NCBI GenBank assembly: GCA_009668925.1 | Contig: SBEK01000210.1 | Location: 1-6,153 of the forward strand | Length of the DNA stretch: 6,153 bases | Source of the DNA: Deltaproteobacteria bacterium | GTDB taxonomy: Bacteria > Desulfobacterota > Syntrophia > Syntrophales > Smithellaceae | Direction: 5' to 3' | Shown here: positions 1,796 to 3,098 of the stretch, piece by piece | Layout of the letters: each line of letters opens with the position of its first letter | Position numbering within the stretch: position 1 is the stretch's first letter | Translations under genes and position numbers: made by a program | The notes under the pieces: generated by a model | Database searches by the model: none | Told to the model about the DNA's origin: nothing | The model's input: only the letters and a program-made list of their open reading frames with translations

Positions 1796-2773
1796 ATGAT
1801 CACCGAGATTTCTGAAAATTTCTATCGCATTACCCTGCCGATGCCTTTCCGCCTGCGCCACGTCCATGCCTACGCGCTGGCCGGAGATAAGCATATCGCC
1901 CTCTTTGACACGGGGATGCATATGCCGGGCGCCTACGAAAAACTGGAGGCGGACTTAAAGAGCATCGGCCGGGCCGTGGAGGAGGTAAGCGACATCTACC
2001 TCACCCACGTGCACACCGATCACTGTGGCCTCGCCGGCTCCATTCAGGAAAAATCAAAGGCGCGTCTTCATCTGTCCGAAGTCGCGAATCAGGTTCACGC
2101 CCATTTCCGGGAGGGAGATTATCTTATCGCCCAGGCCCGGATCTTTTACGCTAAACACGGTATGTCCGCCCGCGACGTGGAAGCCGTCGTGGAAGAAATC
2201 GAAGATATGAGGGGCCGGATTCCGCGATGGGAGGTAACAAGTTTTCTGGAGGATGGGAAGGTTTGCCGCTTCGGTGATCGTTCCTTTGAGGTCATTTCCA
2301 CACCCGGACATGCCGCCGGCCATGTCTGCTTTTTCTTCCGGGACGAAGGCCTGTTGCTGGCCGGCGATCACATCCTGCCCTATATCGCCCCGAGCTTAAG
2401 CCCCAATATCTATGACGAAATCTTTCAGCCGCTCCAAAGCTATCTCACATCCCTCACCGTCATTGAAAAGCTGCCCATCAGCATCATCCATCCCGGACAT
2501 GGAAATTCGCTTGGCGGCATCGATGAACGGATCCGGGAAATCCGCAGCCACCACCGCCAGAAAAAGCAGGCGCTCCTGCAGATCATCGGCGCAGAACCGA
2601 AGACGACATATTCGATCTCAAACGAACTGATCGGCGCGGCATCGGCAAACTGGGATGAATGGGAGAAATTCATGGCGCTCAACGAAACCTACGTCTACCT
2701 GCAGGACCTGAGGCGCGAAGGGGTCATTCGGGAAACCATGAACGATCACAAGCTGTTTTACACAGCCTCCTGA
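1796..2773 (+). CDS. Metallo-beta-lactamase-fold hydrolase with C-terminal winged-helix-like region
   Basis: This 325-residue soluble protein has no signal peptide. The complete di-metal site of the fold is visible: THVHTDHCG (70-78; His71, His73, Asp75, His76), TPGHAAGH (169-176; His172), LAGDH (188-192; bridging Asp191) and HPGHG (232-236; His235). After about residue 245 the chain becomes helical and ends with an NETYVYLQDLRREGVI-type segment (about 295-310). This resembles the winged-helix domain found behind the lactamase fold in LACTB2-like hydrolases and endoribonucleases. Relatives include glyoxalase II, thioesterases and nucleases, so the substrate cannot be assigned from sequence. 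The ATG at 1796 has only a GGGAG (1774-1778) 17 bases upstream, which is long spacing. An in-frame TAA directly before the ATG rules out an upstream extension. The gene lies 155 bp after cfa and is followed by a 638-bp gap. Confidence 0.88.
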   Translation: MITEISENFYRITLPMPFRLRHVHAYALAGDKHIALFDTGMHMPGAYEKLEADLKSIGRAVEEVSDIYLTHVHTDHCGLAGSIQEKSKARLHLSEVANQVHAHFREGDYLIAQARIFYAKHGMSARDVEAVVEEIEDMRGRIPRWEVTSFLEDGKVCRFGDRSFEVISTPGHAAGHVCFFFRDEGLLLAGDHILPYIAPSLSPNIYDEIFQPLQSYLTSLTVIEKLPISIIHPGHGNSLGGIDERIREIRSHHRQKKQALLQIIGAEPKTTYSISNELIGAASANWDEWEKFMALNETYVYLQDLRREGVIRETMNDHKLFYTAS

Positions 2774-2786
2774 GAGCCGCCGACAT

Positions 2787-2815
2787 AAAAAACTTTCGCG
2801 AAAATCGCGCGAAGG
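2787..2815 (-). terminator. Minus-strand terminator-like hairpin just after the hydrolase gene
   Basis: Read on the minus strand, TTCGCG pairs with CGCGAA around a 7-nt loop. The stem gains one outer C-G after a mismatch and is followed within two bases by T6 (2792 down to 2787). The + strand has the same stem, with a U-G wobble in place of the mismatch, but no T-tract, so the terminator polarity is minus. No minus-strand protein gene lies upstream of it; the obvious client is the candidate RNA at 2895-3063. Confidence 0.45.
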
Positions 2816-2894
2816 CATCTGAATTCGTAGGGAAGGCAAGAAGAAAACTATCAATAAAAAAGTATGGTTCGGAATACTTCACCGGACAAAGAAA

Positions 2895-3063
2895 GAAGAG
2901 AGCTGCAATGCTTTTTTTACCATAAGCTGTAGTCAGCTCATTTTATAACTGCTCCCCTGAGCAATTCAGCATTCTCTCTAATACCCATCGATGCTTTTGT
3001 CATGACCTCCTGTGGAACTTAAGTAACTTCCGGTCACAGCACACGGGCATTGCAGCACTCTTC
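2895..3063 (-). ncRNA. Candidate structured small RNA (~170 nt), class unknown
   Basis: The predicted 5' end (3063-3047) and 3' end (2911-2895) are inverted repeats of 17 bases with one U-U mismatch, forming a closing helix. The 3' arm is followed by a T-rich tract (TTTCTTTG, 2894-2887), as expected for an intrinsic terminator. A consensus-like promoter at 3070-3098 places +1 at about the first base of the 5' arm. Inside are AAUUGCUC-AGGG-GAGCAGUU (2966-2947, 8 bp), AUGAGCUG-ACUA-CAGCUUAU (2941-2922, 8 bp), AGCAU/AUGCU (2995-2991 with 2972-2968), and GUGACC/GGUCAU (3037-3032 with 3007-3002) enclosing GGAA/UUCC. Each 8-bp hairpin contains a G-U that would be an A-C mismatch on the + strand, supporting minus-strand RNA. 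CCGUGUGCUGU (3046-3036) could instead pair with ACAGCUUAUGG (2930-2920), extending the closing helix. The length and end-pairing recall 6S-type RNAs, but no family was recognised. A relic of a mobile element with terminal inverted repeats is the main alternative. Confidence 0.5.
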
Positions 3064-3069
3064 GATTTT

Positions 3070-3098
3070 AATGTACAGCCGCAGTCTGTTAATGTCAA
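3070..3098 (-). promoter_or_regulatory. Sigma70-type promoter of the candidate small RNA
   Basis: On the minus strand the -35 box is a perfect TTGACA (3098-3093). A 17-bp spacer follows, then TACATT (3075-3070), four of six matches to TATAAT. The expected start is 6-8 bases further on, about 3064-3062, which coincides with the first base of the right arm of the 17-bp inverted repeat. It is the best promoter match noticed in the intergenic regions. Confidence 0.55.

Follow-up and report, generated by a model that had tools for sequence, protein, structure and literature searches.

A conserved structured RNA of Syntrophia and its frequent tandem relative: a candidate Hfq-independent regulatory RNA family

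Comparison with described small RNAs

Several described bacterial RNAs resemble the gene considered here in one feature or another. 6S RNA (RF00013), a rod with a central bubble, binds sigma70-RNA polymerase and templates pRNA; Qrr and OmrA/OmrB are multi-copy, trans-acting small RNAs that act with Hfq, the protein that commonly assists small RNAs in bacteria. The window, i.e. the whole 6,153-nucleotide stretch of Smithellaceae DNA that was analysed, contains a putative structured RNA, here termed RNA-I, on its minus strand (2893..3064, with the 5' end near 3063-3064), as delimited by a covariance model and by the stability of its fold. It lies in the 638-base gap between a gene for a metallo-beta-lactamase-fold hydrolase (1796-2773, plus strand) and purL (reading from 3412, plus strand).

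RNA-I shares with 6S RNA a length of approximately 170-190 nt, a long stem pairing its ends, and an arrangement as a stand-alone gene with its own promoter, but its interior is multi-branched and not a rod with a central bubble. The earlier suggestion, made from the sequence of the window, of a 6S-like or other regulatory RNA survives in the paired ends but not in 6S identity, which is ruled out by the presence of a separate 6S RNA, scoring above the Rfam cut-off, in all 16 other genomes tested. At E ≤ 10 nothing in the window matches RF00013 itself, and at E ≤ 5 nothing in loci L081-L084 does. Like CsrB and RsmZ, RNA-I is a stand-alone structured RNA containing GGA; unlike them it has few such motifs, as judged by eye in one alignment (A6), and CsrA was not found in 25 of the 35 genomes that host RNA-I, although these are possibly incomplete. 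As with Qrr and OmrA/OmrB, a genome may carry related RNA genes, each with a promoter of its own, that are arranged in tandem or spread over several loci. Those RNAs, however, depend on Hfq, which was detected in none of the 155 genomes of this class by a search that was positive in five of 14 control genomes; an Hfq-type small RNA is rejected on that search.

What is observed for RNA-I, namely its own promoter, a conserved and covarying fold, and unlinked loci, is characteristic of stand-alone structured bacterial small RNAs. The Infernal search proposed for the region found no Rfam 15 family overlapping RNA-I at E ≤ 10, and no gathering cut-off was reached by the window, by L081-L084 or by ten loci of a related RNA, RNA-II, described below. 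All of these gave sub-threshold matches only; those to cspA at RNA-II loci are probably the nearby csp genes. Keyword searches of the literature on small or structured RNAs of Syntrophus, Smithella and the Deltaproteobacteria/Desulfobacterota showed no earlier account of RNA-I among the papers listed.

Promoter, fold and covariation of RNA-I

The predicted minus-strand promoter consists of a -35 box TTGACA (3093..3098) and a -10 box TACATT (3070..3075) separated by 17 nt, with the closing stem starting five or six bases past TACATT. By itself, this promoter is statistically unremarkable in the window: three promoter-like sites are found in the gap against 1.0 ± 1.1 expected from shuffles, and it is overlapped by a competing match, TTAACA-16-TAAAAT (3092-3065, minus strand), with the same score of 10 of 12. 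Comparison between copies separates the two, because 41 of 45 RNA-I copies retain TTGACA, and TTAACA is found upstream in only 15 of the same 45; TTGACA together with TAnnnT at a spacing of 16-17 nt is present in 37. A hairpin resembling an intrinsic terminator, with a T run behind it (2795..2813, minus strand), lies approximately 80 bases past the fold, one of three terminator-like sites found against 0.8 ± 1.0 expected, such that the primary transcript may begin with the 170-nt fold and extend to approximately 270 nt. As both the promoter-like and the terminator-like sites barely exceed their counts in shuffled sequence, the case for an RNA gene rests on conservation.

The ends of RNA-I are formed by an inverted repeat with arms of 17 nt each (2895-2911 and 3047-3063), 94% complementary with one mismatch and 135 nt apart. 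The sequence-only reading had judged such a repeat improbable by chance, and indeed none of 1000 dinucleotide shuffles of the gap produced any repeat of 17 nt with one mismatch or fewer. The 5' arm GAAGAGTGCTGCAATGC (3047..3063, minus strand) and the 3' arm GCATTGCAGCTCTCTTC (2895..2911, minus strand) make up the closing helix, in which 87% of cells are paired across 43 copies, and the 3' arm is directly followed on the minus strand by TTTCTTTG, as had been described. The stable hairpins reported between the arms were also reproduced: the minus-strand sequence from 3063 to 2887 folds with -65.4 kcal/mol (z = -4.76), a stability equalled by none of 200 shuffles, and the z score lies below -2 in 41 of 41 RNA-I copies (mean -5.2, weakest -2.26). 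The covariance model matches the window over model positions 1-173 with 167.6 bits, the window being one of its five training sequences. Two inner hairpins lie towards the 3' end, AATTGCTCAGGGGAGCAGTT (2947..2966, minus strand; helix 5), with 89% of cells paired and both-side changes in five of seven pairs, and AGCTGACTACAGCT (2925..2938, minus strand; helix 6), the best conserved, with 96% of cells paired and both-side changes in three of seven. Elsewhere in the window, a hairpin CCCTCTCCC...GGGAGAGGG (1684-1730), for which Rfam gave sub-threshold matches only, is found between a cyclopropane-synthase-like gene and the hydrolase gene.

Covariation was assessed on alignments comprising 43 of the 45 copies (A5, leaving out L146 and L147) or 41 (A6, leaving out the fragments L146 and L147 and the close duplicates L120 and L141). 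The model-fitted alignment (43 copies) has 87% of its cells paired and shows 105 both-side changes, against 49.6 in shuffles. Because such an alignment leans towards its own model, the minimum-energy fold of the window was additionally imposed on a sequence-only alignment of 41 copies, in which 73.5% of cells pair against 32-48% when the fold is slid along the alignment, and 86 both-side changes compare with 59.2 in shuffles. This test is weaker on covariation, since a slide of +1 gives nearly equal values (89 both-side changes against 86 and a covariation score of 0.155 against 0.162, with 48% of cells paired against 74%) and the pair types do not exceed those of shuffles, being reached by 155 of 500. 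The closing stem and the two 3' hairpins are well supported by covariation, and the central helices are weakly supported. Every comparative test agrees with the proposal that the region holds an uncatalogued gene for a structured RNA, whose start, strand and length are those originally predicted; comparison between genomes establishes the putative RNA-I gene with its strand, promoter, fold and conservation, together with the tandem partner considered below.

Distribution of RNA-I, its neighbours and RNA-II

The check suggested from the sequence was whether the pairing is conserved in the purL-upstream regions of relatives. PurL relatives were recovered at 80 loci, the best being 87-79% identical and coming from assemblies named Smithellaceae or Deltaproteobacteria, and blastn found no RNA-I copy upstream of purL in any of them, some having little upstream sequence; the best E value, 0.58, belonged to 18-nt matches elsewhere. 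A purL leader is rejected on these grounds. Conservation is found at other sites, where promoter, closing stem and hairpins recur in 40-odd homologues. The homologues lie beside varied genes, and RNA-I is accordingly not tied to purL or the hydrolase gene.

Among the first ten genomes searched with blastn, two gave strong matches (1.4e-34 and 2.7e-30), two weaker ones (4.8e-8 and 5.2e-6), five only chance-level matches (E of 0.2 to 4) and one no match. Five aligned copies have the promoter, the closing stem, a GGAGGT motif and the hairpins in common, and at E ≤ 0.1 a model built from five copies gave matches in 53 of the 155 genomes searched within the order. With a refined model, matches were found in 47 of the 155 class genomes at E ≤ 0.01, and 44 loci in 35 genomes scored above 50 bits, with one copy in 27 genomes, two in seven and three in one. 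This count leaves out loci below 50 bits, i.e. cross-matches to RNA-II, opposite-strand matches reflecting the near-palindromic sequence, and a few unclassified cases (for example 43.2 bits at G020:C7 and 26.4 bits at G007:C226). An even sample of the phylum, searched with stricter filters, yielded RNA-I in four of 395 genomes, all four already among the class genomes. As far as sampled, RNA-I therefore appears limited to this class and to a minority of its genomes, many of the 155 being probably incomplete.

The nearest genes at ten RNA-I loci are mostly unrelated, encoding a sulfate permease, transglycosylases (twice), a nitroreductase, an ABC ATPase, SecG, a short-chain dehydrogenase, a PilZ protein, a thioredoxin, Sel1 repeats (twice), a diguanylate cyclase and an MFS transporter, among others. 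Neighbours are shared within small groups of loci, with up to five loci per real gene family, as is expected for related species. At one locus in another genome (L129, G050), a homologue of the window's metallo-hydrolase lies within approximately 1 kb of RNA-I, possibly as remnant synteny.

A second RNA of approximately 155 nt, RNA-II, was first seen as weak matches behind RNA-I, and lies 12-72 nt downstream of it at 32 of the 44 loci; it was also noticed at L082, L083 and L084. It is related to RNA-I, the RNA-I model scoring 39.1 bits on RNA-II and the RNA-II model 37.7 bits on RNA-I, and is the more strongly conserved of the two (mean column identity 85% over 24 copies), often with a terminator AGCCCCTCG...CGAGGGGCTTTT. 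At E ≤ 1e-4 its model matched 75 of the 155 class genomes. Once two of 125 rows lying on RNA-I had been dropped, 123 matches remained; these span 192.8 to 30.5 bits, some being weak and others partial, such as those of 59 nt (G036:C22) and 56 nt (G009:C28). In the phylum sample, RNA-II occurs in 12 of 395 genomes, three of them outside the class genomes. None was detected by this model in the window, where the best match is RNA-I itself (10.6 bits, E of 0.028), nor at E ≤ 1e-4 in three genomes with RNA-I (G005, G060 and G061). Unpaired matches number 91. For the 90 unpaired copies with enough upstream sequence, TTGACA is found upstream in 44 and TTGAnn with TAnnnT at 16-18 nt in 38, so that about half of them show a promoter of this type of their own. 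Direct pairing between the two RNAs, through ACUGGAG and CUCCAGU as seen by eye, was considered and dropped, given an extra G in the longer RNA-I subtype and the three RNA-I genomes without RNA-II.

Some loci depart from this pattern. Behind RNA-I at L201 and L212 (G087), only remnants of RNA-II or of a shared terminator can be seen by eye, which suggests loss of RNA-II by deletion. Contig C1 of G078 carries two RNA-II matches (L277 and L298) and no RNA-I above 50 bits. Five weak RNA-II-like matches (L313, L319, L320, L325 and L331) lie 30-34 nt behind a conserved gene whose product, as judged by eye, resembles a B12-binding radical-SAM protein, and are perhaps a third branch of the family.

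Cold-shock (csp) genes recur near these RNAs. Of the 135 RNA loci, 12 have a csp gene within 500 nt (three of 44 RNA-I and nine of 91 unpaired RNA-II). Contigs G046:C90 and G045:C64 contribute overlapping pairs to the 135 regions, a large number of which are cut by contig ends. At ten of the 135, in nine genomes, csp is on the same strand and upstream, 80-121 nt separating the end of the protein match from the RNA (L217, L248, L250, L254, L260, L261, L262, L273, L276 and L327, the last being a 59-nt truncated RNA-II); at the other two it is divergent, 414 and 453 nt away. None was found in the 80 purL loci (858 kb), a control that also spans other groups, and the background is approximately 171 csp genes in approximately 142 Mb of 44 genomes. 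By eye, several csp-linked loci share spacer sequence, so the linkage partly reflects common descent and may have been inherited from few ancestral loci.

Possible action of RNA-I and rival explanations

RNA-I is most probably a stand-alone, Hfq-independent regulatory RNA family, and we infer both its transcription and a regulatory action in trans that does without Hfq. RNA-I carries a conserved Shine-Dalgarno-like GGAGGT (3005..3010, minus strand) that has no start codon at the normal distance. The motif is exact in 36 of 41 copies and inexact or missing in five, within a constant segment CACTGG(G)AGGTAA, and is mostly paired in predicted folds (mean unpaired probability 0.27). A masked Shine-Dalgarno copy of this kind suggests contact with the anti-Shine-Dalgarno end of 16S rRNA or with transcripts bearing CCUCC; as the motif is mostly paired, such contact needs a structural switch. 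Under the mechanism proposed, RNA-I would be expressed from its sigma70-type promoter on the minus strand, and its ends would pair in a stem of 16-17 bp that should protect it and, with a U-rich tail in those copies having one, may aid the end of transcription. Between the ends stand two or three hairpins and the partly sequestered GGAGGT segment, which refolding or binding of RNA-I would open as a contact site; pairing with 16S rRNA or CCUCC-bearing transcripts would then tune translation, perhaps with the participation of cold-shock RNA chaperones. This mode of contact is preferred, but held only tentatively. A pattern for the 16S 3' end found no match in 22 genomes, in whose assemblies the rRNA is perhaps missing or masked.

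The main rival, given the csp linkage and a conserved motif in RNA-II, is that RNA-I and RNA-II are partners of the Csp chaperones, binding or regulating them, with csp and RNA forming a functional unit. The same-strand arrangement at ten RNA loci against no csp at all in the purL loci favours this, as does TCTTnGTGG, present in 24 of 24 RNA-II copies, which in part resembles the heptamer GTCTTTG/C reported for Bacillus subtilis CspB (PMC7825780). That heptamer is a DNA consensus, and GTCTTTG occurs in full in five of 24 RNA-II and in 0 of 41 RNA-I copies. With few RNA-I loci close to csp, one of the ten same-strand cases truncated, and shared spacers that may make the linkage ancestral and passive, a Csp partnership seems doubtful. 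In a more far-reaching proposal, RNA-I and RNA-II would be halves of a single regulatory system, free of Hfq, in syntrophic bacteria, standing in tandem and ancestrally placed behind csp. On release, the masked Shine-Dalgarno copy of RNA-I, which has no normal start codon, would mimic mRNA and engage the anti-Shine-Dalgarno of the 30S subunit, and the corresponding ACTGGAT segment of RNA-II would stay paired within RNA-II, to ACTCCAGT; the whole would act as a translation brake responsive to growth or temperature. This is speculative and rather improbable. The position of some RNA-II copies behind csp, that of the weak matches behind the radical-SAM-like gene, and the neighbours shared in small groups would also be compatible with an element acting in cis on a neighbouring gene, as part of its leader or of its 3' UTR, which is nevertheless quite unlikely: the promoter of RNA-I is its own and keeps a nearly fixed distance from it, in the window RNA-I faces the 3' end of the convergent gene and points away from purL, and different groups of loci have different neighbours.

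The remaining explanations are less probable still. Titration of CsrA by the GGA segment, withholding it from mRNAs in the manner of CsrB and RsmZ, might be expected from the position of GGA in a partly looped segment, from a second GGGA in the longer RNA-I subtype and from CACTGGAGGT, which resembles CsrA sites. It is very unlikely, because CsrA is no commoner in genomes with RNA-I (10 of 35) than in the others (34 of 120; 44 of 155 overall), and as a general role it is rejected on this distribution; each RNA also has few GGA motifs, and conservation extends beyond them. Translation of a small peptide from GGAGGT would account for conservation of the site, and ATG stands one base behind the motif in five of 42 copies with GGAGGT or a variant, the window included, opening 21-28 codons. 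A spacing of one base is too short for a normal Shine-Dalgarno start, ATG or GTG 2-14 nt behind the motif occurs in none of the 42, and loop lengths shift out of frame. As for other starts, GTG occurs at 15 nt in four (3-15 codons) and TTG at 12-14 nt in seven, one copy having TTG at 13 nt with 39 codons. A peptide mRNA is accordingly rejected as highly improbable on the start-codon scan. Genomes with RNA-I hold one to three copies of it, unlinked sites included, which could indicate a repeat, whether mobile or palindromic, or a retron RNA with paired ends, yet the copies diverge with promoter and fold kept, and such an origin is scarcely credible. No transposase or reverse transcriptase was found among Pfam hits of the window's proteins or of 19 flanking frames at ten of the 44 loci (four of the 19 frames giving no hit), and the lack of an adjacent reverse transcriptase distinguishes RNA-I from retron RNAs. 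A phage or plasmid element is rejected, as the window RNA had no match in phage and plasmid collections and one strict pattern had none in viral contigs.

For annotation, the gain is an RNA superfamily, comprising two or more branches, for which Rfam 15 yielded no match. Syntrophic fatty-acid degraders live near the energy limit, and a pair of RNAs kept across part of a class in whose 155 genomes Hfq was not found would provide an entry to gene control in such cells. If the GGAGGT segment does act as a Shine-Dalgarno copy, RNA-I would influence translation in a manner unusual among small RNAs.
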